Below are positions 1 to 12,281 of a DNA stretch of 64,000 nucleotides, piece after piece. Both the position numbers and the translations under genes were made by a program. Source of the stretch: Thermasporomyces composti (lineage in GTDB: Bacteria > Actinomycetota > Actinomycetes > Propionibacteriales > Actinopolymorphaceae); the NCBI RefSeq assembly GCF_003386795.1, contig NZ_QTUC01000001.1:4092001-4156000 (forward strand), written 5' to 3'. The notes beneath the pieces are model-generated. The model was not told the DNA's origin. It ran no database searches and saw only the letters and a list, made by a program, of their open reading frames with translations. Numbering within the stretch: position 1 is the stretch's first letter; every line of letters starts with the position of its first letter.

Positions 1-1133
1 CCTCGGCTGGGCGCGACGTGCCCGGTCGGCACCGCGTCGCTCACGGTGATGAGCGTCGGCCACCCGTCGGCGCCGACGACGATGTGCGACGGGTCGAGGT
101 CCCGGAGCACGTACCCCGCCCGGTGCACTGAGGCCAGCAAGGACATCAACCGTCGAGCCACCAGCAGGGCCGCTGGCGCGGGCACGCCGCCCTCGCTCCC
201 GGCATGCTGCTGAACCCACTGCCGCAAAGGTGTGGCTGGCCGGCTCTCACAGACCACGAACAGGTCGCCGGCGTTGGCGAACGCCTTGAGCGGACGAGGT
301 ACGGGCACCCTCCGTGCCAGGTGGTGGAGGGTGTGAACCTCTCGGAGCAGTCGAGCGCGGGCGTCGGTGCCGTCAGCGTCGACGTCGGTGTGGGCGCGAG
401 CGTGCTTGAGCACGACGTCGGTCGACCTGGGTTCTGCAGCCAGGTCGGTGGCGAGGTACACGCCACCTGTCGTAGTGACCCGCAGAGCGGAGGTGACGAG
501 GTATCGACCGTGCAGGAGTATCGGACTCCTGGAGCGGTCGTGATCGTCGGCGCGATCGACGTGGAGCGGCGGGCGCTCGGCGCCGAGGCGGAGGTAGGGC
601 CTGCGCTCGGAGACCTCGCACGCCACGACGGTCGCGGACGCAGCTCGTGCCGTCGTGAGGTCCACGTCGCCGTCACCGTCACTGATGTGGACGATGCCGC
701 CGATCCGGTAGGGCCGAGCCTGCGGGATGCGTGGTCCGGGCAGTCCTCGGGTCGCCGTGTAGAGGTGCCTGGCCAGGTCGAGCAGGTGGGCGTCGTCGCC
801 GTCCTCGGGCGAGGTGCTCAGGAAGATCCCGAATTCGCTGGCGGCGCATGTTTGACTGCCGAGGTGACGGACATGCTCGACCGTGGGAGCGAACGCGAAC
901 GGCAGAGCTCGCTGGGCAAGGAGGGGAACCACCACCTGAAGGATCGTCAGGGCCGAGTGCGGCGCTGCCGACAGGTGCAAGCGCCACGGCCTCCCGGTTC
1001 TGCCGGTGGAGGGCACGGCGACGTACCAGGGTGTTCCAGGGACGATCCGCCACGACCCCGGGTCGAAGTCGTCGAGCAGACGCGCGACCTCGTCAGCCAA
1101 GGTACGTTCCTGTGATGCCCCTGGCAGCGCCAC
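1..1133 (-). CDS. Class III lanthionine synthetase (LanKC)-like protein, N-terminal part, runs off the window
   Basis: The open frame runs from a GTG at 1133 to the left edge without a stop; 377 residues are visible. The upstream sequence GAGGGGGCGAGAGATCA gives a purine-rich ribosome site. The protein has the LanKC plan: an N-terminal lyase-like region with WRLHLSA (residues 50-56, matching the family W-K-[IL]-H-[VL]-S-A box), then a protein-kinase region with TGGVYLATD (222-230), VVLKHARAH (lysine 243), RLLREVHTL and the catalytic-loop-like VLRDLDPSHIVV (342-353). In family enzymes the kinase phosphorylates Ser/Thr of a precursor peptide, the lyase eliminates the phosphate and a C-terminal cyclase closes the ring; that cyclase would lie outside the window. 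Oddities: the loop Asn is His350, the DFG/DFE-like site reads LITVS with Thr363 in place of Asp, and the family SGKF-type lysine box of the lyase reads SEFGIF. The protein may therefore be a degenerate or regulatory member. Family assignment is fairly secure; activity is not. Confidence 0.72.
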   Translation of the reverse strand, partial: MALPGASQERTLADEVARLLDDFDPGSWRIVPGTPWYVAVPSTGRTGRPWRLHLSAAPHSALTILQVVVPLLAQRALPFAFAPTVEHVRHLGSQTCAASEFGIFLSTSPEDGDDAHLLDLARHLYTATRGLPGPRIPQARPYRIGGIVHISDGDGDVDLTTARAASATVVACEVSERRPYLRLGAERPPLHVDRADDHDRSRSPILLHGRYLVTSALRVTTTGGVYLATDLAAEPRSTDVVLKHARAHTDVDADGTDARARLLREVHTLHHLARRVPVPRPLKAFANAGDLFVVCESRPATPLRQWVQQHAGSEGGVPAPAALLVARRLMSLLASVHRAGYVLRDLDPSHIVVGADGWPTLITVSDAVPTGHVAPSR

Positions 1134-1438
1134 TGATCTCTCGCCCCCTCGGTGTCGTGTCCGCCACCCCGCCGGGGCGTTCCCGAGCAGTCGCCGACCA
1201 CCGTGCCGCGCAGAGACCGGTCAGTCGCGCGGATGCCACCCACAGACGCCCCTTCTGTCGGTGCTCCGCAACTATGCGTGCACATACGACTACCAACTGG
1301 TGTTACGGGGCGCAATGACTTCGGCGAAGAAAAGTCGCGGAGTCAGGTCACGATCCGAGCACGACGTTCCACAATCGCCCGAGGTGCCCGTCGGAGGTGC
1401 CGGTCGTCTGTCGGGGCGTCGACCACCCGGACGCGCAC
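1134..1438. other. Intergenic region between the LanKC-like gene and the beta-lactamase-like gene
   Basis: About 305 bp upstream of the LanKC-like gene. The section 1255-1375 is richer in A and T than its surroundings, which suits a promoter for the leftward gene. I see no convincing lanthipeptide precursor: the short minus-strand frames here lack a leader with an LxLL-type motif followed by a Ser/Thr/Cys-rich core, and they overlap the synthetase start. Confidence 0.4.
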
Positions 1439-2317
1439 TCAGGAGCCCGCGACCAGGCGTCGATCACTCCAGCTCGCCGCCGCGACCCGCGCCACCAGGT
1501 CGCACGCCTCCTCGTCTCCCAGTGGCGCGCTCACACAGGTCACGAGAACGTAGGCGGGCGCGTCCGGTGGAAGGACCACAGCGGCGCTGTGGCGGATGCC
1601 ATCGACCCACCCGTTCTTGTGCGCGACGGCTGTGCCGGGTGGCAGGCCTCGCACCACGTCGTCGGTGACCTCCTGGGCGAGGAGGTTTGACAGCATCTCC
1701 TCGCACGCCTCCGGCGAGGCCAGGGCGCGGTCACCGTGAGCCGACCGTCGGGCGCCGAGGTAGACCGCGGCGAGGAGGGCGGCGAGGTCGCTGGCGGTCA
1801 CGACGTTCGACAGCCCTGCGTCCTCCGCGGCATAGTCCTGGATGCCGCGCGCCACGGTGGAGCGTCGGGCACCGACCGCAGCCCAGACCTCGGCGACCGC
1901 GGCCATCCCGACCCGCTCCAAGACCAGGTTGGTGGCGAGGTTGCTCGACCGCACGATCATTCGCCGGACCAGCCAGCGCAGCCGGGCGGTTCGGCCGAGC
2001 CTCTCCCACGGCTGCGGGTCATTGTCGTAGTCAGCCGTCGACCGGTACGTCGTGCCATCGCCGAGGGCGGAGGGGAACTCGTCGTGCACCAGGACCTCGG
2101 CGTCCAGGTCGAGCCGCCCCGCCTCGGCGAGCCGGTAGGCCGCGGCCATGACGGCGACCTTCATCGTGCTGGCCGCGTAGTGGGGCTCGTCCGGCAGCCG
2201 CGCATAGACCGGAGGGCGTCCCGGCGGGCCGCACCACACCGACACGGTGCCGGGCACCGCGTCCAACGTGGGCTGCAACCGGGCGAGGGTCGGCGGGGTC
2301 GACGAAACCGCGGTCAC
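1439..2317 (-). CDS. Class A beta-lactamase-like serine hydrolase
   Basis: 292 residues with the three active-site elements of the penicillin-interactive serine hydrolases: STMK (Ser50 nucleophile, Lys53), SSN (124-126, the SDN position) and KNG (234-236, the KTG position, in HKNGW). Known members hydrolyse beta-lactams or act as D,D-peptidase-type or esterase enzymes. The N-terminus has no signal peptide or lipobox, which is unusual for a secreted beta-lactamase, so either the product is cytoplasmic or it is not a drug-resistance enzyme. SSN and KNG instead of SDN and KTG also argue for a divergent substrate. It lies 48 bp downstream of the membrane protein gene, probably in one transcript, and upstream of the LanKC-like gene. 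Confidence 0.85.
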   Translation of the reverse strand: MTAVSSTPPTLARLQPTLDAVPGTVSVWCGPPGRPPVYARLPDEPHYAASTMKVAVMAAAYRLAEAGRLDLDAEVLVHDEFPSALGDGTTYRSTADYDNDPQPWERLGRTARLRWLVRRMIVRSSNLATNLVLERVGMAAVAEVWAAVGARRSTVARGIQDYAAEDAGLSNVVTASDLAALLAAVYLGARRSAHGDRALASPEACEEMLSNLLAQEVTDDVVRGLPPGTAVAHKNGWVDGIRHSAAVVLPPDAPAYVLVTCVSAPLGDEEACDLVARVAAASWSDRRLVAGS

Positions 2318-3520: not shown

Positions 3521-4522
3521 TCAGGGAACGACCTGGATCTTCCGGCCGATGCCGGCTTTGAACCTCTCGAGCGCGGTGGCGTAGTCGTCGAGCGGGAAGC
3601 GGTCGCTGATCAAGACGTCCGGACGCAACACGCCGTTGACGAACAGGTCGCCCGCTCGCTCGAAGCTGTGGAGCACCGCCATCGAGCCGGTGATGGTGAT
3701 CTCCTGGTTGTAGATCCGGTACGGCTCGATCTCCACGCGGGCGTCGTACGACGAGACGCCGAACTGCAGGAACGTACCCCCGCGACCCACCCGGGCGAGC
3801 CCGTCCTGGATGGCCGCCGCCACCCCGGTGCAGTCGATGACGACGTCCCAGCCGCGCGGGAAGTCATCCGCGAGCTCGTCCGCGTTCGTCGCCGCACCGG
3901 AGCAGCCGAGCTCGCGCGCCGTCTCCAGGCGAGCCGGGTTGAGGTCGACGACACTGACGCTGCCCGCGCCGGCCCGCTTCGCCAGCTCGAGCATCATCAA
4001 GCCCATGGTGCCCGCGCCGTAGATGAGGTAGTGGTCGCCGAGCACGCGGGGGAGGACGTCGAACCCGCGCACCGCGCACGACAGCGGCTCGATGAGCGCC
4101 GCGTCGGCTGTGGACACCCCCTCCGGGAGGCGGTAGCAGTTGCGCACGGGTGCCACGGCGTACTCGGCGGCGCCGCCGGCGGTCGTCACACCGATCGCCG
4201 CCCAGTTCTCGCAAAGGTTGCCTCGCGCTCGCCGGCAGTAGTGGCACTCCCCGCAGTGAAGGGAGGGATCGACCGCCACTTGGTCGCCGACGCGGACCTC
4301 GGTGACGTCCTTGCCTACCGCCACGACCTCACCCGCGAACTCGTGCCCGGGCACGACGGGGAGGGTCGGGGCGAACTCGCCCTCCAGAATGTGCAGGTCG
4401 GTGCCGCAGAGCCCGCACGCGGCGACCCGGACCACGACGTCCCGAGGGCCAGGGGAGGGGTCGGGCACCGTCTCGACGCTGACCTGTCCCGGAGCGCAGA
4501 TGACCGCGGCCTTCAAGGGCAT
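3521..4522 (-). CDS. Zinc-dependent medium-chain dehydrogenase (sugar/polyol or alcohol)
   Basis: 333 residues from ATG 4522 with GGAAGGA just upstream. The catalytic zinc site is shown by CGLCGTDLH and GHEFAGEV, the structural zinc site by the four cysteines in CGECHYCRRARGNLC, and the nucleotide-binding fold by YGAGTMGLMMLELAKRAG. Family members oxidise a secondary alcohol of a sugar or polyol with NAD(P)+. It sits 64 bp downstream of a second, sorbitol-dehydrogenase-like gene; the gap is a tandem repeat. The pairing of two paralogous dehydrogenases facing a kinase operon suggests two successive oxidations of one sugar alcohol. The exact substrate cannot be read from sequence; L-threonine or 2-deoxy-scyllo-inosamine dehydrogenase-like activities are alternatives. 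Confidence 0.88.
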   Translation of the reverse strand: MPLKAAVICAPGQVSVETVPDPSPGPRDVVVRVAACGLCGTDLHILEGEFAPTLPVVPGHEFAGEVVAVGKDVTEVRVGDQVAVDPSLHCGECHYCRRARGNLCENWAAIGVTTAGGAAEYAVAPVRNCYRLPEGVSTADAALIEPLSCAVRGFDVLPRVLGDHYLIYGAGTMGLMMLELAKRAGAGSVSVVDLNPARLETARELGCSGAATNADELADDFPRGWDVVIDCTGVAAAIQDGLARVGRGGTFLQFGVSSYDARVEIEPYRIYNQEITITGSMAVLHSFERAGDLFVNGVLRPDVLISDRFPLDDYATALERFKAGIGRKIQVVP

Positions 4523-4527
4523 GTCCT

Positions 4528-4587
4528 TCCAGTCGTAGGGGAGAGACCAGTCGTCGTGGAGAGACCGGTCGCAGTGGAGAGAGCTGT
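4528..4587. repeat. 18-bp imperfect tandem repeat between the two dehydrogenase genes
   Basis: Three and a third units with an 18-bp period: TCCAGTCGTAGGGGAGAG (4528-4545), ACCAGTCGTCGTGGAGAG (4546-4563), ACCGGTCGCAGTGGAGAG (4564-4581) and a partial unit running into the stop codon of the upstream gene. The array fills almost the whole intergenic gap and its first unit overlaps the ribosome site of the downstream gene. Confidence 0.85.
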
Positions 4588-5624
4588 CATTCCTGGGGAC
4601 GCACCACCGGCTTGAGGGCCGTCTCGTCCTCCGCCGTGATGGTGAGTGCCCGCTCGGTGTCGGCCAGACCCATGTGGTGGGTGACCAGGCGGTCGAGGTT
4701 GACCGCACCGGACGCGGCGAGGGCGATCGCCGCCGGCCAGGTGTTGGCATACCGGAAGGTACCGGTCACCTCGATCTCGTGGCGCTGCACGTGCGCCAGC
4801 GGGAGGGAGATCTCGTCGCCGCCCATGCCGACGAGGACCACCCGCCCGCCAGGGCGCACGCGTCGGATCGCCGGACCGATCGCCGCGGGCGCGCCGGAGC
4901 ACTCGAGGAGCACATCCGCCTCGACCTCGGCGTCCGCGAGGGACGTCGTGGTCACGTCGACGGTCATGGTGGCGCCGAGCTCGGCGGCCACGGCCAGCCG
5001 CTGAGCCCGGACGTCGGTGACCACGACCTCGGGCGCGCCGAGGGCGCGCGCCACCTGCAGCGCGACCAGTCCGATCGGGCCCGCGCCTGTGACGAGGACG
5101 CGAGTGTCCGGACCGACGCGGGCCTTGCGAGCGCTCCAGACGCCCACGGAGAGAGGCTCCAGGAGGGCGGCGGCGTCGTCGGACAGGCTGTCGGGGACCG
5201 GGTGGGCGAACTCCTCGTGCAGGACCACGTACTCGCAGAAGGCGCCGTCGACCGGAGGTGTCGCGAAGAACCGCATGTCGGGGCAGAGGTTGTAGCGCCC
5301 CAGACGGCACTCCACGCACGTGAAGCACGGCACGCCGGGTTCGAGAGAGACCCGCTGACCCGGGGAGAGCCGGGTGACGTCCGCGCCGCAGGCAACGACC
5401 ACGCCGCTGGGCTCGTGCCCGAGGATGAGCGGCGCACGGACCACGAAGTCGCCGATGCGACCGTGCTCGTAGTAGTGGACGTCGGAGCCGCAGATGCCCA
5501 CCGCCCGGACCTGGATGAGGACTTCGCGAGGCCCAGGCACGGGCACCGGACGCTCCTCGAGGACAAGCTCGCCAACCCGACGAAGCACTGCGGCTCGCAT
5601 CGTCTTCGGCACCGTGTCAGTCAT
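4587..5624 (-). CDS. Sorbitol/xylitol dehydrogenase-like zinc dehydrogenase
   Basis: 345 residues from ATG 5624, preceded by GGAG at a good distance; a GTG four codons further upstream (5636) is the alternative. The CGSDVHYYEHGRIGDF and GHEPSG signatures place it in the polyol dehydrogenase group of the medium-chain family, which oxidises sorbitol, xylitol or related alditols to ketoses with NAD+. The structural zinc cysteines are in CFTCVECRLGRYNLC, and the cofactor fold is GAGPIGLVALQVARALG. It is the promoter-proximal gene of the leftward pair and lies back to back with the kinase operon at 5948. Confidence 0.9.
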   Translation of the reverse strand: MTDTVPKTMRAAVLRRVGELVLEERPVPVPGPREVLIQVRAVGICGSDVHYYEHGRIGDFVVRAPLILGHEPSGVVVACGADVTRLSPGQRVSLEPGVPCFTCVECRLGRYNLCPDMRFFATPPVDGAFCEYVVLHEEFAHPVPDSLSDDAAALLEPLSVGVWSARKARVGPDTRVLVTGAGPIGLVALQVARALGAPEVVVTDVRAQRLAVAAELGATMTVDVTTTSLADAEVEADVLLECSGAPAAIGPAIRRVRPGGRVVLVGMGGDEISLPLAHVQRHEIEVTGTFRYANTWPAAIALAASGAVNLDRLVTHHMGLADTERALTITAEDETALKPVVRPQE

Positions 5625-5947
5625 GGTCAGCTCCACGCTCCCGAGTCGGTCGAAGCCCGCCAGGCGGTGGTTCAGTGGTCGTTCCGCGCCGAGCTTCCCG
5701 AGGAGGTCGGACAGCCGTCAAGGGTGGGCGGACGGATCCGGTCAGGTCGCTCGACCCTAGGCAGCGTCCCTGGGCAGCGTCGTCGCTCCCTGGAGGTCAC
5801 AGCTGCTGGGTCCGCTGATGACCCGGCCTAGAATCCGGCCGGCTACGAGGCAGGCCACGCTCGGGTGGCCGGTAGGCGGAGGACAGGAGGCGTGATGGAC
5901 TCCGGCACCTCGCGGAGCGACCCACCCGTGTCCCAGGTGGTGGGCCC
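5625..5947. promoter_or_regulatory. Divergent control region of the polyol locus
   Basis: 323 bp separating the leftward dehydrogenases from the rightward PfkB operon, so promoters for both sides must lie here. A TAGAAT hexamer at 5829-5834 is a fair -10 for the rightward genes but its -35 is poor. On the minus strand a TTGACG occurs near 5716-5721 without a good -10. No gene is convincing here; the long minus-strand frame crossing it is the shadow of the PfkB gene. Confidence 0.4.
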
Positions 5948-6946
5948 GTGATCGTCACGGTCACGCCGAACCCGTCGCTCGACAGGACCCTCGATGTGCC
6001 CGATCTCGTCGTCGGCGGCGTGAACCGGGCCGCCGGGCGGCACGTCGAGCCGAGCGGCAAGGGTGTCAACGTCACCCGAGCCTTGGCGATCAATGGCGTG
6101 GAGTCCGTCGCCGTGCTGCCCTCCGGCGGTCCGGAGGGCGAGCAGGTGTTGCGCCTGCTCGAGGCCGAATCCGTGCGTTACGTCGCGGTCCCGATCCGCG
6201 AGCCGGTGCGGGTCAACATCACCGTCGCCACCGTGAGCGGCGTCGCCACGAAGATCAACGAGCCCGGCCCCACGCTGACCGACAGCGAGGTGGCGGCTCT
6301 CATCGATGCGGTCCTGCGGACGAGCCGTCACGGCGACTGGGTCGTCGCCTCGGGCAGCCTCCCTCCTGGGGTCGCCGCCGACTTCTACGCCGACCTGGGA
6401 TCCCGCCTCCGCGCCGAGGGACGCCGCTTCGCGCTCGACACCAGTGGCGAGGCCCTGCGGCACGGACTCGCCGGCCGCCCGGAGATCCTCAAGCCCAACC
6501 TCGAGGAGCTCGCCGAGGTCGCGCATCGTCCACTGCGCACGCTCGGTGACGTGGTGGCCGCGGCAGAGGACGTCCAGCAGACCACGGGCGGTGCGGTCCT
6601 GGTCAGTCTCGGTGCGGCCGGTGCCGTCCTCGTCGACGGTGAGCCACCCCTGCACGCCCAGGCGCGGGTCGGCGAGATCCGCAGTGCCGTCGGCGCCGGG
6701 GACAACGCGCTGGCCGGTTTCCTCGCCGCGATCGACGCCGGTCGCGACCGGACGGCCGCGCTCAGGGAAGCCGTGGCCTGGGGGTCGGCCGCTGTCCGCG
6801 CCCCGGGGAGCCTCGCCCCGCCCGTGACCGACGTCGACCGCCAGGCTGTGCGCCTCCAGCCACGGCTCGACCTCGACCGAGTGGTGTCCGATCCTCGACA
6901 CGCTGGCACCCCGTTCCGGCCCGACACCTCAGCTCAGGAGGACTGA
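5948..6946 (+). CDS. PfkB-family sugar kinase, 1-phosphofructokinase/tagatose-6-phosphate kinase type
   Basis: 332 residues from GTG 5948 behind AGGTGG; the product begins exactly at the family start, TVTPNPSLDRT. The substrate-binding PSGKGVNVTRAL, GSLPPG and the C-terminal anion-hole motif are present. The latter reads GAGDN (249-253) instead of GAGDS/T; its aspartate, the catalytic base, is kept. Family members phosphorylate a ketohexose phosphate, such as fructose 1-phosphate or tagatose 6-phosphate, at the free terminal hydroxyl. It is the first gene of a three-gene operon with a dehydrogenase (3 bp gap) and an FGGY kinase (6 bp gap), so it probably makes a bisphosphate from the product of those partners; no aldolase is in the window. 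Confidence 0.9.
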   Translation: MIVTVTPNPSLDRTLDVPDLVVGGVNRAAGRHVEPSGKGVNVTRALAINGVESVAVLPSGGPEGEQVLRLLEAESVRYVAVPIREPVRVNITVATVSGVATKINEPGPTLTDSEVAALIDAVLRTSRHGDWVVASGSLPPGVAADFYADLGSRLRAEGRRFALDTSGEALRHGLAGRPEILKPNLEELAEVAHRPLRTLGDVVAAAEDVQQTTGGAVLVSLGAAGAVLVDGEPPLHAQARVGEIRSAVGAGDNALAGFLAAIDAGRDRTAALREAVAWGSAAVRAPGSLAPPVTDVDRQAVRLQPRLDLDRVVSDPRHAGTPFRPDTSAQED

Positions 6947-6949
6947 ACG

Positions 6950-7987
6950 ATGCGGATCCTCGCCGTCGGCGACCACTTCATCCCAGCCTCGGCGTATGTC
7001 GAGGCGCTCGCCGAGGACGTCAACGTCGACGTCCGGACTGTCGAGTGGTCGGGGGACAAGGCACAGCAGCACGCGGCGCAACAGCTGATGGAACGTCACG
7101 GTCCCGACGCGGTCGCGGTGCCCACCGAGGTGGTCGAGGCGGTCGCTGACGCGGAGGCGCTCGTCCTGCACTTCGCGCCGGTGCCGGTCGCCGTGCTGGA
7201 CGCCGGCCCGAAGCTGCGGGCGATCGTCGTCGCTCGGAGCGGGCTGCAGAACGTCGACATCGCGGCGGCGACCGCCCGAGGAGTGGCGGTCGTCCCGGTG
7301 CACGGCCGCAATGCCACCGCGGTCGCCGAGCTGGCGATCGGCCTGATGCTGAGCGAGGCCCGGGCCATCGCACGGGCGGACGCGTCGGTGAAGTCCGGCG
7401 GCTGGCGCAAGGACTTCGGCGGCCCTGGCCGCGAGGTGGGCGGAAGCACGGTGGGTCTGGTCGGCTTCGGACACGTCGGCCGGGCGCTCGCCCGACGTCT
7501 GCGAGGCTTCGACGTCCGCCTCCTGGTCAGTGACCCCTACGTCGAGGCCAGGGTGCTCGACGAGTACGGGGCGGTCGCGGTCGACTTGGACACCCTCTTC
7601 CGTGAGTCGGACTTCGTGCACGTTCTCGCCCGACTGACCCCGGAGACCGAACGCCTCATCCGGGCGGAGCACTTCGCACTGATGAAGCCGACGGCGTACT
7701 TCATCAACACCGCTCGGAGTCGCGTCGTCGACTACGACGCTCTCTACCAGGCGCTGGCGGAGGGACGCATCGCGGGCGCCGGTCTCGACGTCTTCGACGA
7801 GGAGCCGCTCCCCGTCGACAGCCCGTGGCGCCGGCTCGACAATGTGACCATCACCACCCATTTCGGTGGGGACACCACCACCACCGTCAGCCGATCCGCC
7901 GAGCTGGTGGCTCAGGCGGTTCGGGAGCTGGTGCAGACCGGACGGATCTCGTCCGCGGTGAACGCCCGCGACCTGGGGTGGAGCTGA
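6950..7987 (+). CDS. D-isomer-specific 2-hydroxyacid dehydrogenase
   Basis: 345 residues. AGGAGGAC inside the end of the PfkB gene provides the ribosome site, so the two are coupled. The NAD-binding domain is marked by GLVGFGHVGRALARRL, and the catalytic Arg, Glu and His are expected in NTARSRVVDYD, DVFDEEPLP and TTHFGG. Family members (phosphoglycerate, formate, glycerate and lactate dehydrogenases) interconvert 2-hydroxy and 2-oxo acids. Length and domain order match the SerA-like catalytic half without ACT domain. Its place between two sugar kinases suggests a role on a sugar acid or aldonate branch of the same pathway. Confidence 0.9.
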   Translation: MRILAVGDHFIPASAYVEALAEDVNVDVRTVEWSGDKAQQHAAQQLMERHGPDAVAVPTEVVEAVADAEALVLHFAPVPVAVLDAGPKLRAIVVARSGLQNVDIAAATARGVAVVPVHGRNATAVAELAIGLMLSEARAIARADASVKSGGWRKDFGGPGREVGGSTVGLVGFGHVGRALARRLRGFDVRLLVSDPYVEARVLDEYGAVAVDLDTLFRESDFVHVLARLTPETERLIRAEHFALMKPTAYFINTARSRVVDYDALYQALAEGRIAGAGLDVFDEEPLPVDSPWRRLDNVTITTHFGGDTTTTVSRSAELVAQAVRELVQTGRISSAVNARDLGWS

Positions 7988-7993
7988 CGAACC

Positions 7994-9481
7994 ATGACGG
8001 CTGACCTGTTGCTCGGCGTGGACGCCGGCCAGACCGTCACCAAGGCGTGCGTGTTCGATCGGTCCGGCCGTGAGCTCGGCGGTGGTAGCGCGCGGGTCGA
8101 GGTCCACAGCCCACGTCCCAGGTGGGTCGAACGCGACATGGAGGAGGTGTGGCAGGCGACCGGCGTGGCCATCCGGAACGCCTTGGCGGACGCGGGTGTG
8201 ACTGGGGACCGGATCGGCGCGGTGGGCATCGTGGGGCACAACGACGGGCTCTACCTGGTCGACGAGAACGGTGCGCCAGTCCGTCCCGCTGTGACCGCGA
8301 TGGACACCCGCGCTCACGAGGTGCTGGAGGAGTGGCGATCCGGCTCGGTCTGGACGCGCGCCCTCGAGCTCACCGGTCAGGTACCGTTCGCGGGCTCGCC
8401 CTCGGCGCTGCTGGCGTGGTTCGCGCGACATGACCGTGGAGCGCTCGAGCGCGCTCGATGGGTGCTGTTCTGCAAGGACTGGCTCAGGTACCGCCTGACC
8501 GGGCGCGTCGCGACTGACCCGAGCGAGGCGAGCGCCGCGTTCACCAACGTCCACACCCAGCGGTACGCGGACGAGGTGCTCGCGCTGTATGGCCTCGGCT
8601 GGCTCGCTGACCGGTTGCCACCCCTCCTGCGGAGCGAGGAGATCGCGGGGGAGGTGAGCGACGCGGGCGCGGCCGCGACCGGGCTCGCGGCCGGCACCCC
8701 CGTCGTCACCGGGGCGCACGACGTCGACGGCACAGCGGTGGGCTGTGGAGCGGTACGCCCAGGGATGCTGAGCCTGGTCGCCGGGACCTTCAGCATCAAC
8801 CAGGTGGTGAGCAAGGAGCCGATCGTCGACGAGCGGTGGCAGGCACGCACCTTCGTCCGGCCGGGGGAGTGGCTCACCATGGCGACGTCTCCCTCGTCGG
8901 CCACGAATCTGGAGTGGTGGCGGGGCGTGTTCGGCCTGAGCGCCGACGGGGAGGCGTACGCCACCCTGGAACGTGAGGCGAGCGCCGTCCTCGACGGCCC
9001 GAGCCGGCTCCTCTACCACCCCTTCCTCTACGGCTCCCCGTACGGGGAGCTCGCGAGCGCGGCCCTGCTCGGTCTGCGCGGCTGGCATCGCCGCGGTGAC
9101 CTCGCGCGCGCGATCATGGAGGGCGTTGTCCTCGGGCACCGCGTCCACGTCGACGCGCTGCGAGAGCGGTTCAGTCTGGAGGGACCCGCCCGGCTCTCCG
9201 GCGGCGCAGCACGCAGCGCCGTGTGGTCGCAGATGTTCGCCGACGCCCTCGGCATGGAGATTGAAGTCCCGGCGTGTGAGGAGGCCGGGGCCCGCGGTGC
9301 CGCTCTCCTCGCCGCGCTCGGCATCGGGGTGTACGCGAGCCTCGACGAGGCCGCGGCGACGGTGCCGATCGCGCGCCGACACGCCCCGGACCAGCGGCGT
9401 CGGGCCGTTCTGCAGGAGGCCTACGACGCGTTCGTCGCCGCCGCGTCGGCGTTGCGCGACGTGTGGGCTCGCTGGGGCTGA
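7994..9481 (+). CDS. FGGY-family carbohydrate kinase
   Basis: 495 residues, the usual length. The N-terminal ATPase-fold loop is GVDAGQTVTKACVFD, the second half carries VVTGAHDVDGTAVGCGA and the C-terminal LSGGAARSAVWSQMFADAL adenosine-binding signature. FGGY kinases phosphorylate pentuloses, polyols or ketoses at a terminal hydroxyl; the sequence resembles the xylulose/L-xylulose/erythritol-type kinases rather than glycerol kinase, but the substrate is not decided. It is the last gene of the operon and its 3' end overlaps the convergent hydrolase gene by 61 bp. Confidence 0.92.
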   Translation: MTADLLLGVDAGQTVTKACVFDRSGRELGGGSARVEVHSPRPRWVERDMEEVWQATGVAIRNALADAGVTGDRIGAVGIVGHNDGLYLVDENGAPVRPAVTAMDTRAHEVLEEWRSGSVWTRALELTGQVPFAGSPSALLAWFARHDRGALERARWVLFCKDWLRYRLTGRVATDPSEASAAFTNVHTQRYADEVLALYGLGWLADRLPPLLRSEEIAGEVSDAGAAATGLAAGTPVVTGAHDVDGTAVGCGAVRPGMLSLVAGTFSINQVVSKEPIVDERWQARTFVRPGEWLTMATSPSSATNLEWWRGVFGLSADGEAYATLEREASAVLDGPSRLLYHPFLYGSPYGELASAALLGLRGWHRRGDLARAIMEGVVLGHRVHVDALRERFSLEGPARLSGGAARSAVWSQMFADALGMEIEVPACEEAGARGAALLAALGIGVYASLDEAAATVPIARRHAPDQRRRAVLQEAYDAFVAAASALRDVWARWG

Positions 9482-10290
9482 CGGCCGTCGGGGACTTCGC
9501 TGGGCCGCGCGGTCGAGATGATCGCCGCCGCGATGGCCTCCGCATAGCCCGTGGGGTTGTCGTAGGCCATGGTGTGGCCGGCGTCAGGAACGACGTGGAC
9601 GGTGACCCCCGCGGCGGCCAGGTCGGTGGCGTCCACGTCGCCGGACCGCTCGCCGACCAGGTAGGCACGGGGCATGGGCGCGGCGAGCAGCTGGGCGCGG
9701 AAGGTCGGGTCGCGCTCGGCCAGCAGCGAGACGGCCGCGCGGTACATCGCGAGCGGGGACCAGCGTCCTGTCGTCGCGTAGAACAGCGATTGGCCAGCCG
9801 CCCGTTCCTCTCGCTCGACGCTCGCTCGCAAGACGTCGTATCCCCGCATGACGAAACGGGTCTCAGGCTGGTCGGCGATGTGCCGGCTCAGCCTCCCCAC
9901 GCCGGGGTCGAGGTTGGGCTCGCTGGTGACGAGCTGGCCCACCAGGTCAGGTCTGGTGTGAGCCAACGTGATCGCCACCGAGCCACCGAGGCTGTGGCCC
10001 ACCACCACGCAGCGGTGGAGTCCGAGGCCGTCCAACAGCGCGGCGACCGTTGCCGCGTGCTCCTCGATCGTGTGTCCGAACCACCCTGGTCCGGGGTCAC
10101 TCCATCCGGTGCCGAGGAGGTCGACCAGGAGGGACCTGCGACCGCGCAGCGCGGGATGGGTCACGATCTCGGGAAACTCCGCGGTGGCGGCGGAACCCAG
10201 CCCGGCAAGGTAGACGTGAGCTGGACCATCGCCGGGCAGGTCGAGATAGCGAATCCAGGCGTCGTACGCGGAGAGCCGATGTGCACGCAT
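9421..10290 (-). CDS. Alpha/beta-fold hydrolase
   Basis: 289 residues. The nucleophile elbow is VVGHSLGGS (Ser100), the oxyanion region is near YLAGLGSAATAEFP, and the catalytic histidine is in VPDAGHTMAYDN; the acid lies in the SGDVDATD region. Such enzymes cleave esters, lactones or similar bonds; the substrate is unknown. The last 20 residues (RPSEVPDGRQPQRAHTSRNA and beyond) are an extension encoded on the opposite strand of the FGGY kinase 3' end. No ribosome site precedes the ATG; a TAAACT hexamer six bases before it suggests a leaderless transcript. Confidence 0.9.
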   Translation of the reverse strand: MRAHRLSAYDAWIRYLDLPGDGPAHVYLAGLGSAATAEFPEIVTHPALRGRRSLLVDLLGTGWSDPGPGWFGHTIEEHAATVAALLDGLGLHRCVVVGHSLGGSVAITLAHTRPDLVGQLVTSEPNLDPGVGRLSRHIADQPETRFVMRGYDVLRASVEREERAAGQSLFYATTGRWSPLAMYRAAVSLLAERDPTFRAQLLAAPMPRAYLVGERSGDVDATDLAAAGVTVHVVPDAGHTMAYDNPTGYAEAIAAAIISTARPSEVPDGRQPQRAHTSRNADAAATNAS

Positions 10291-10296
10291 TGGCGT

Positions 10297-10302
10297 AGTT
10301 TA
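10297..10302 (-). promoter_or_regulatory. Candidate -10 element of a leaderless promoter for the alpha/beta hydrolase
   Basis: On the minus strand TAAACT is followed by six bases and then the ATG at 10290. This fits the TANNNT consensus and the spacing of leaderless actinobacterial promoters, and no Shine-Dalgarno sequence is present. The -35 region is poor. Confidence 0.45.
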
Positions 10303-10365
10303 GGCGGCTTCGTCCGTCTACGTCTTCGCTCGCGTACGTCTCGTCACCGGTGATCGGCAACCTTC

Positions 10366-10857
10366 TCAGTCCCGCCGGTCGCCGATCGCCGCGGTGATCG
10401 CGGCTGTCAGCTCGATCAAGGTCGCCGGAGATGCCTCGATCTGTAGTCCGCGGCGGCCGGCGGAGAAGTAGATGGTCTCGAAGTCGAGGGCAGATATGTC
10501 GACGACGGTGGGCAGCCGCTTGCGTTGGCCGAGTGGGCTGATCCCGCCTACCACGTAGCCCGTCGCGCGCTCCGCCTGGACCGGGTCGGCGAGTGTCGCA
10601 CGCTTGCTGGTGAGCGCAGCGGCGCAGGCCTTCAGGTCGAGCCGTACGGCCACCGGGACCACCGCCACGGCGAGTCCACGGTCGGTCTCGACCACCAGTG
10701 TCTTGAAGACCCGCTCGTACGGCACGCCGAGCGCGTCGGCCGCCTCCTCGCCATACGACTGGGCGCCGGGTGCGTGCTGGTAGGAGTGGAGGACGAAATC
10801 CGCGCCCGCCTGCGTCAGGGCGACGGTCGCTGGCGTCGCGTTCCTGACCTTCCGCAC
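10366..10857 (-). CDS. ybaK: Cys-tRNA(Pro)/Cys-tRNA(Cys) deacylase, YbaK/EbsC family
   Basis: 163 residues from a GTG. The family signatures are VFKTLVVE, the basic VPVAVRLDLKACAAAL stretch with its lysine, KRATLADP and the GGISPLGQRKRLP loop. YbaK hydrolyses Cys wrongly attached to tRNA-Pro in trans and so guards translation fidelity in the cytoplasm. Length is typical. The gene stands alone between the hydrolase and a small uncharacterised frame, and its ribosome site is weak. Confidence 0.93.
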   Translation of the reverse strand: MRKVRNATPATVALTQAGADFVLHSYQHAPGAQSYGEEAADALGVPYERVFKTLVVETDRGLAVAVVPVAVRLDLKACAAALTSKRATLADPVQAERATGYVVGGISPLGQRKRLPTVVDISALDFETIYFSAGRRGLQIEASPATLIELTAAITAAIGDRRD

Positions 10858-10866
10858 GCGTGCAGC

Positions 10867-11265
10867 CTACTGGTCCGATTGCGCAGGGTCCGTGCCGCCC
10901 GAGAAGCCGAGCCCGAGGCCCGGACGAACGAAGGCCCTGAGCGAGTCGGCGGCGAGGCGGCGCACGGCTGCTTGCCCCACCCGAAGGTCTCGGCAGTTCG
11001 TCCGGTAGACCCCACCGACGTAGCCGTCGACGTATGCCGGGTCACCGGAGTCGACGGTTACCACGAGCTTGACTCGAGCGGGGCAGCGAATGCCCGGCGA
11101 GGGAGGGGACCACGTCGAGTCGCCGACGGCGAGCGGTACCTGCTCGTCGGCCAGGTCGTCCGCCCACTGTCTGTGCCGGTGCGGTCGCCTCAGGCCGCGG
11201 TCGCTGTCGTCGACGCTGTTTGTGGACCGAGGCCGGGGGTAGGTCGCGGAATGATGGTGGGCCAC
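10867..11265 (-). CDS. Uncertain small hypothetical protein
   Basis: An open frame of 132 codons that ends nine bases before the ybaK start. The second half (KLVVTVDSGDPAYVDGYVGG to the end) has codon usage with strong G/C at third positions and looks protein-like. The first half is rich in His and Arg and may be non-coding, so the true start may be internal. No domain is recognised. It is divergent from the DNA ligase gene at 11283. The frame could also be chance in this GC-rich DNA. Confidence 0.35.
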   Translation of the reverse strand: MAHHHSATYPRPRSTNSVDDSDRGLRRPHRHRQWADDLADEQVPLAVGDSTWSPPSPGIRCPARVKLVVTVDSGDPAYVDGYVGGVYRTNCRDLRVGQAAVRRLAADSLRAFVRPGLGLGFSGGTDPAQSDQ

Positions 11266-11282
11266 GGTGATGGCACGCGGAC

Positions 11283-12281
11283 ATGACGAACCCGTTGGAT
11301 CTTCTCGACGAAGGGCAGCGGCGTCTCCTGCGCCCGTCCTCTCGTGTCGAGTGGCGTCAACCTATGCTTGCCACACTGACAGACAAGCCCTTCTCTCACC
11401 ACGATTGGGTCTTCGAAGCCAAGCTCGACGGCGTCCGAGCGATCGTGGTACGGACAGGCGGCGACGTCTCGCTGTGGTCGCGCAACCGCAAGGACATGTC
11501 CGCGAGCTATCCCGAGCTCGTGGACGCCTTCGCCCAGCAGGTGGCGGACAATTTCGTCGCCGACGGGGAGATCGTCGCGTTCGACGGCGACCTCACCAGC
11601 TTCGCCAAGCTCCAGGCGCGGATTCACCTCACCGACCCGAGACGAATCGCCGCTACCGGCGTCGACGTCTGCATCTACCTGTTCGACTTGCTGGTCTACG
11701 ACCGCGTCGACCTGACCGGCCTGCCGCTCATCGCGCGCAAACGCGTCTTGCGCGCGGCGTTCGACTACCACGGTCGTCTGCGGTACTCGTCGCACCGGGC
11801 CACCTACGGCGAGGAGTACTACCGACAGGCGTGTGCCCACGGATGGGAGGGTCTGATCGCGAAGCGGGCGAGCTCTCGGTACCAGGAGGGACGCCGCTCC
11901 CGCGACTGGCTGAAGCTCAAGTGCGTTCGCGACCAGGAGTTCGTCATCGGCGGCTTCACCGACCCGAGCGGCTCTCGACAAGGGTTCGGCGCTCTCCTCG
12001 TCGGCTACTACGACAAGGGCCGGTTGCGCTACGCCGGCAAGGTCGGCACCGGCTACAGCGACCAGCTGCTTCGTGACTTGCGGGCCCGGCTGGACCGGAT
12101 CGTCCAGCCATCCTCACCGTTCTCCGAGCCAGTTCGGGAACCCGGTGCCCACTGGGTGCGTCCCGAGCTGGTCGCTCAGGTCGGCTTCACCGAGTGGACC
12201 AGTGACGGGAAGCTGCGTCACCCCCGTTTCCTCGGGCAGCGTCTCGACAAAGACCCGACCGAGGTGGTGCGGGAGACCTAG
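11283..12281 (+). CDS. ATP-dependent DNA ligase, LigD ligase-domain type
   Basis: 332 residues. The adenylation motif I is EAKLDGVRA with Lys47 as the nucleotide acceptor; further motifs are VADGEIVAFD, YLFDLLVYD, EGLIAKRASSRY and WLKLKC. An OB-fold follows (FVIGGFTDPSGSRQGFGALL) and the typical VGFTEWTSDGKLRHPRFLG end. This is the ligase module of the bacterial Ku/LigD end-joining system, or a stand-alone LigC-like paralogue: the polymerase and nuclease domains of full LigD are absent and no Ku gene is in the window. It probably seals nicks in repair or stationary-phase end joining. Confidence 0.93.
   Translation: MTNPLDLLDEGQRRLLRPSSRVEWRQPMLATLTDKPFSHHDWVFEAKLDGVRAIVVRTGGDVSLWSRNRKDMSASYPELVDAFAQQVADNFVADGEIVAFDGDLTSFAKLQARIHLTDPRRIAATGVDVCIYLFDLLVYDRVDLTGLPLIARKRVLRAAFDYHGRLRYSSHRATYGEEYYRQACAHGWEGLIAKRASSRYQEGRRSRDWLKLKCVRDQEFVIGGFTDPSGSRQGFGALLVGYYDKGRLRYAGKVGTGYSDQLLRDLRARLDRIVQPSSPFSEPVREPGAHWVRPELVAQVGFTEWTSDGKLRHPRFLGQRLDKDPTEVVRET

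Follow-up and report, generated by a model that had tools for sequence, protein, structure and literature searches.

The left end of the window, by which we mean the whole 64,000-nucleotide stretch of the Thermasporomyces composti genome analysed here (G000; an assembly of one contig, 4.37 Mb), carries a gene on the minus strand whose reading frame is open across positions 3..1133, starts with GTG at 1133 and is cut by the left window edge. These positions hold the 376 N-terminal codons of a gene of 909 codons that contains no stop and spans C1:4090404-4093133 of the genome (L002:10404-13133, minus strand), reaching to about position -1596 in window coordinates. Pfam matched RamC_N and LANC_like in the 909-amino acid protein. 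The lyase-like (RamC_N) domain comprises residues 12–205 (window 519..1100, minus strand) and is followed by a kinase-like domain, of which residues 206–376 lie in the window (3..518, minus strand) and the remainder, to about residue 500, to its left. The initial annotation had called for the sequence to be extended leftwards in search of a cyclase domain, and this extension revealed a C-terminal cyclase (LanC) domain with the zinc ligands Cys763, Cys808 and His809, the one LanC domain found genome-wide. Further into the window, positions 3521-9481 appear to hold a sugar-use group, with two zinc dehydrogenases, a 1-phosphofructokinase-like kinase, a 2-hydroxyacid dehydrogenase and an FGGY-type kinase predicted.

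The full-length protein scored 710.5 bits against the NCBIfam profile of class IV LanL synthetases (NF038150, curated cut-off 650 bits) and 256.6 bits against that of class III LanKC enzymes (NF038151), which is below the cut-off of 575. Both by sequence and by fold, its best solved structure was CuvL (8cav/8car), a trifunctional synthetase that it matched from end to end (Z 44.1 over 774 residues), followed in the fold comparison by full-length ThurKC (Z 38). Intact enzymes of this type phosphorylate a small peptide, remove the phosphate again and finally form a sulfur ring. Because of the LanL profile score, the zinc ligands and the match to CuvL, we assign the protein an origin from a class IV LanL and not from a class III LanKC. 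The class III, LanKC-like label that it had initially been given was therefore not borne out: LanKC enzymes have no zinc ligands in their LanC domain (PMC10604976; PMC9486802), and the presence of these ligands together with the 256.6-bit score rules out a LanKC identity. What did stand is the kinship, since class III enzymes such as ThurKC and CurKC share the lyase and kinase families with the G000 protein and the residues map onto each other. With the class IV enzymes (VenL, SgbL and the nearest in fold, CuvL) it has in common the lyase-kinase-LanC order, the Cys/Cys/His zinc ligands, the fold and a profile score above the cut-off, but unlike them it is without the kinase and lyase catalytic residues, lanA, lanP and the equivalent of the cyclase Asp141.

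Catalytic residues were scored in an alignment with 25 zinc-type synthetases without lesion, all of them matches of the LanL profile, using the columns that are at least 95% conserved. In G000, 12 of the 28 lyase columns were changed, including K51R, K80A, K103I, D139A and R151S, as were 4 of the 19 kinase columns (R263L, N350H, D363T and T379A, the last just outside the window) and a single cyclase column out of 31 (D626G). Three intact controls from the family showed 0–1, 0–2 and 0–1 changes in the lyase, kinase and cyclase columns, respectively. His350 (codon at window 84..86, minus strand) replaces the invariant Asn of the catalytic loop and Thr363 (window 45..47, minus strand) the invariant metal-binding Asp of the DFG/DFE/DLE motif, so that the residue set of an active Ser/Thr kinase is incomplete; K243 (the ATP Lys), E265 and D345 (the loop Asp) are kept. 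The initial annotation had proposed these two substitutions, which the full-length alignment confirmed, and all the residues that it quoted were exact (R51 and H53 in WRLHLS, S99-F104 in SEFGIF, K243 in VVLK, D345 and H350 in RDLDPSH, and T363 in LITVS). Nor are the true DFG and loop Asn located at other positions, since the same alignment places N350 and D363 in these columns. The view of SEFGIF as an altered SGKF box was right with respect to residue 103, where the catalytic Lys of the lyase (ThurKC Lys94, SpvC Lys136) is truly lost to Ile (window 825..827, minus strand), but not with respect to the EFG, which is normal since intact LanLs of the family read AEFGK. The residue set of a phospho-Ser/Thr lyase (ThurKC Lys65, His67, Lys94, Asp152 and Arg163) is incomplete as well, with K51R, K103I, D139A and R151S falling on Lys65, Lys94, Asp152 and Arg163 of ThurKC and with H53 kept. 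In ThurKC, mutation of H67, K94, D152, R191, K257 or E279 impairs or abolishes normal processing; K94A yields unmodified peptide only, and D152A at most 5 dehydrations (PMC10604976). In the structure model of the G000 protein the kinase fold is well predicted, and residues 154–201 of the lyase-like domain are mostly predicted to be disordered. Judging from its residues, the protein has very probably lost both kinase and lyase catalysis, and we infer that it no longer phosphorylates or eliminates.

Orthologues occur at the equivalent chromosomal place in six genomes of Actinopolymorphaceae, a family of soil actinobacteria, and the lesion is common to all. The syntenic neighbourhood in the family consists of typA, an S49 peptidase, a TerC-like protein, NlpC/P60, endonuclease V, a pyridoxamine oxidase-like protein, a dipeptide epimerase, the LanL-derived gene, a beta-lactamase-like protein, GH2 and a dehydrogenase, some of which are missing from some of the genomes. 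The products of several neighbours resemble proteins of cell-wall peptide recycling (NlpC/P60 with SH3 domains, dipeptide epimerase and beta-lactamase-like serine hydrolase; L002:7389-10340 and window 1439-2317, both minus strand), and such recycling is a possible context for the retained protein. Four of the orthologues (G002, G003, G004 and G006) have had the kinase N-lobe deleted together with most of the lyase, and their loop reads GDLSPDR; an Actinopolymorpha protein was modelled with residues 1–100 disordered and the kinase C-lobe and cyclase folded. The syntenic copy of G005 reads RGLDPAS and TGLR, and that of G007 reads RDLHPSQ and ASA and has Arg in place of the ATP Lys. Between 5 and 23 lyase columns and between 5 and 10 kinase columns are changed in these sisters, and no cyclase column in any of them. 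Across the dead clade N350 is replaced by H, S, Q or R and D363 by T, G or S, and D345G and K243R are also found among the sisters. Because the sister residues at N350 and D363 are unrelated to each other, D345 and K243 are also replaced and the N-lobe is deleted in four species, the substitutions point to erosion and not to a new active site.

The outgroup genus (G001) carries an intact class IV LanL at the orthologous place (974 bits); after it come an S9 peptidase, a 42-amino acid VenA-like precursor (MAELTLDVAVLEELPETDSVELGGDCCGPVTCLCTCLLTLVL) and then the epimerase. LanL, peptidase and precursor make up a complete class IV cluster (L034:6782-6910, minus strand, with L034:6930-8680 and 8677-11640); about 2 kb past it lies a class III LanKC (L034:1737-4448). 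In the tree, the dead copies formed one branch (support 100/99) adjoining the intact family members. Since the dead copies form one branch and an intact LanL stands at the outgroup place, the simplest history would be a single loss of kinase and lyase function in an ancestor within Actinopolymorphaceae, followed by separate erosion in each lineage. A scan of named genomes found Actinopolymorpha rutila as the only relative, and a plasmid search returned distant LanLs only. The order-wide search found two further close LanLs, both in G440, which retain, in addition to the zinc ligands, the lyase K/H and Lys and the ATP Lys; with simple motif patterns, the Asp-Asn loop was matched in one copy and the metal Asp motif in the other copy only.

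Upstream of the gene, a conserved promoter-like element (TTGGTAGTCGTATGTGCAC) is located at window 1278..1296 (minus strand), the single place in G000 that fits the pattern exactly. All seven dead copies have the same first 14 bases of TTGGTAGTCGTATGNNCAC, and the intact G001 copy shares the first 13; in each genome searched the best match of the element is the one upstream of the LanL locus, with zero mismatches except one in G001. Weaker copies precede a second, intact LanL of G005 and a propeller gene at the lepA locus of G002, G006 and G007; this TTGGTAGTCGTATG element is thus common to the intact copies, the dead copies and the lepA locus. This conserved element probably acts as a promoter. 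At window 1241..1256 (minus strand), AGAAGGGG..GTG is in frame with the intact G001 LanL and out of frame here, and it is likely to be what is left of the ribosome-binding site and GTG start of the ancestral gene. No credible Rfam match to a structured RNA was obtained upstream of the gene.

With a lanA query, precursor genes were detected only in G001 and G005, which are also the only two of the genomes that have an intact LanL. The intact LanL of G005 lies near lepA (L041:7947-12172, plus strand) together with a hydrolase-less peptidase propeller and its own precursor (MNQLMLDVAALEQLPEVDSTGPPDYYCDPASCAASCLLSVTTR). Genome-wide searches of G000 with lanA and with a VenA profile returned no precursor, although a very diverged or unrelated one could escape them and the profile is weak, giving the G005 precursor itself an E value of 0.8. 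A small-ORF scan of the first 12 kb of L002 and of the whole window found no precursor in G000 either; the same filter found the lanA of G001 but missed that of G005, and the scan is thus not exhaustive. The S9 peptidase propeller partner is absent from G000 and present in the other seven genomes, and neither LanB nor a second lyase domain was found in the G000 genome. LanB with an adjoining LanC occurs in G004 and G007, and lyase-bearing synthetases are encoded elsewhere in the genomes of G006 and G007. Near lepA in G002 (L075), G006 and G007 (L066) there is a peptidase-propeller gene of about 330 amino acids without hydrolase, LanL or precursor (L074:7011-8103, plus strand). This orphan propeller is intact, with about 92% identity among close Actinopolymorpha species, and only it and the promoter-like element survive near lepA in these genomes.

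Selection was estimated as dN/dS by a simple counting method with bootstrap on GC-rich, partly saturated sites, and among four Actinopolymorpha species this gave an omega of 0.13 (0.09–0.18) for the cyclase and 0.38 (0.27–0.49) for the kinase remnant. The G000 branch gave values of 1.04 (0.68–1.68) for the lyase, 0.42 (0.30–0.58) for the kinase and 0.32 (0.23–0.46) for the cyclase, which indicates that G000 has a drifting lyase and a constrained cyclase, with the kinase intermediate between them. The cyclase domain, and not the kinase, is the part kept by selection; some function may lie in the kinase remnant because its omega is also below 1.

The cyclase of G000 is nonetheless not untouched by substitution. 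The equivalent of NisC Asp141, located through ThurKC Ser608, is Gly626 in G000 and Asp in every other zinc LanL surveyed, while the general acid His (NisC His212, here His703) is kept; the sisters keep both Asp and His. Residue 764, which adjoins the zinc ligand Cys763, is Asp in G000 and Ser, His, Asn, Gln or Arg in zinc-type relatives. It occupies the position of LanCL1 His277, and LanCL1 H277D shows a loss in kcat/Km of about 85-fold (from 3.2e4 to 3.7e2 per M per min), with peptide binding not observed (PMC9934072). The cyclase was modelled with a pLDDT of mostly 95–98. Because of D626G and of Asp764 beside the zinc Cys, cyclase activity in G000 appears doubtful, and the domain may be weakly active or binding-only. 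It is conceivable that the catalytic Asp has shifted from residue 626 to residue 764.

To account for these observations, we propose that an ancestral LanL within Actinopolymorphaceae would have lost dehydration (kinase and phospho-Ser/Thr lyase) once, and that the precursor and leader-peptidase genes would have gone from the locus with the dead LanL staying in place. The retained part would be the zinc-bearing LanC toroid, which could either activate a thiol so that it adds to a dehydroamino acid formed elsewhere, like free-standing LanC or eukaryotic LanCL proteins, or bind a thiol or a peptide; in G000, D626G and Asp764 make binding or slow decay likelier than efficient catalysis. On the whole, we consider it rather probable that the gene is a dehydration-dead LanL relic passed on vertically, which persists because of a role in zinc/thiol or peptide binding and may be decaying in G000. 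The initial annotation had suggested either a changed chemistry or a regulatory or binding protein. Our results agree that it has ceased to be a normal synthetase, and a binding or regulatory protein is possible; a changed kinase chemistry does not agree with them: neither the metal Asp nor the loop Asn is left, their replacements are inconsistent across the clade and the lyase residues were lost in parallel, so that a kinase still active through atypical metal-ATP binding is very improbable in spite of the retained D345, K243 and E265. A regulatory or scaffold pseudokinase, with the kinase-like domain binding peptide or nucleotide, would fit these same three residues, the well-predicted kinase fold and the kinase omega of 0.42. 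This seems improbable too, however, and nucleotide binding is not the conserved role of the clade, because the sisters lose Lys243, Asp345 or the entire N-lobe and yet keep the cyclase.

Total loss of function deserves more weight, though we still think it unlikely that the G000 gene is a decaying, functionless pseudogene of a lost lanthipeptide cluster. The lyase omega near 1 on the G000 branch, the displacement of the start codon from the ancestral start, the loss of precursor and peptidase and the additional cyclase lesions (D626G and Asp764) all speak for decay, but the 909 codons contain no stop, the cyclase omega is clearly below 1, the upstream element is unchanged, the cyclase is modelled with high pLDDT and all 31 near-invariant cyclase columns are intact in the sisters. 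If the relic is indeed retained, its cyclase could serve in trans another modified peptide of the cell, in keeping with the zinc ligands and His703, with the LanB and adjoining LanC of G004 and G007 and with the additional lyase-bearing synthetases of G006 and G007; G000 itself, however, has no LanB, no second lyase domain and no precursor found, and such a role is quite improbable. A bacterial LanCL counterpart in the making, derived from a class IV synthetase by shedding of dehydratase and precursor, in which the zinc LanC domain now performs intermolecular thiol chemistry such as the addition of mycothiol onto protein dehydroamino acids, is a long shot. The G000 toroid matches the eukaryotic LanCL proteins with Z 36–38 over about 350 residues and shares with LanCL1/2 a zinc-bearing LanC toroid, but this likeness is one of fold alone and in G000 the kinase-like domain is still fused. 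In a published tree, human LanC-like proteins fall inside the class IV clade (PMC7268733).

A precedent for a retained, dehydration-dead synthetase is provided by degenerate LanM-like proteins of clostridia such as CA_C0082 (PMC10301443), which likewise have lost dehydratase residues, have a shortened dehydratase and no precursor, and are retained. These proteins are of class II, have lost the zinc site and adjoin agr genes, whereas the G000 gene keeps the zinc site and lies among typA, epimerase and beta-lactamase genes, with no agr gene seen in its vicinity. What is new with respect to this precedent is that the clade keeps the cyclase and displays several stages of erosion at one place; in a literature search that lay outside most subscription journals, no report of a lanthipeptide-synthetase pseudokinase or of such a clade was found. 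For genome mining, the locus is a warning that a LanL or LanKC annotation need not mean a lanthipeptide product. For the family, intact, kinase-dead and N-lobe-deleted versions of LanL at one chromosomal place amount to a natural dissection of the enzyme, which makes testable what a LanC domain does without dehydratase and peptide and bears on the origin of free-standing LanC-like proteins.
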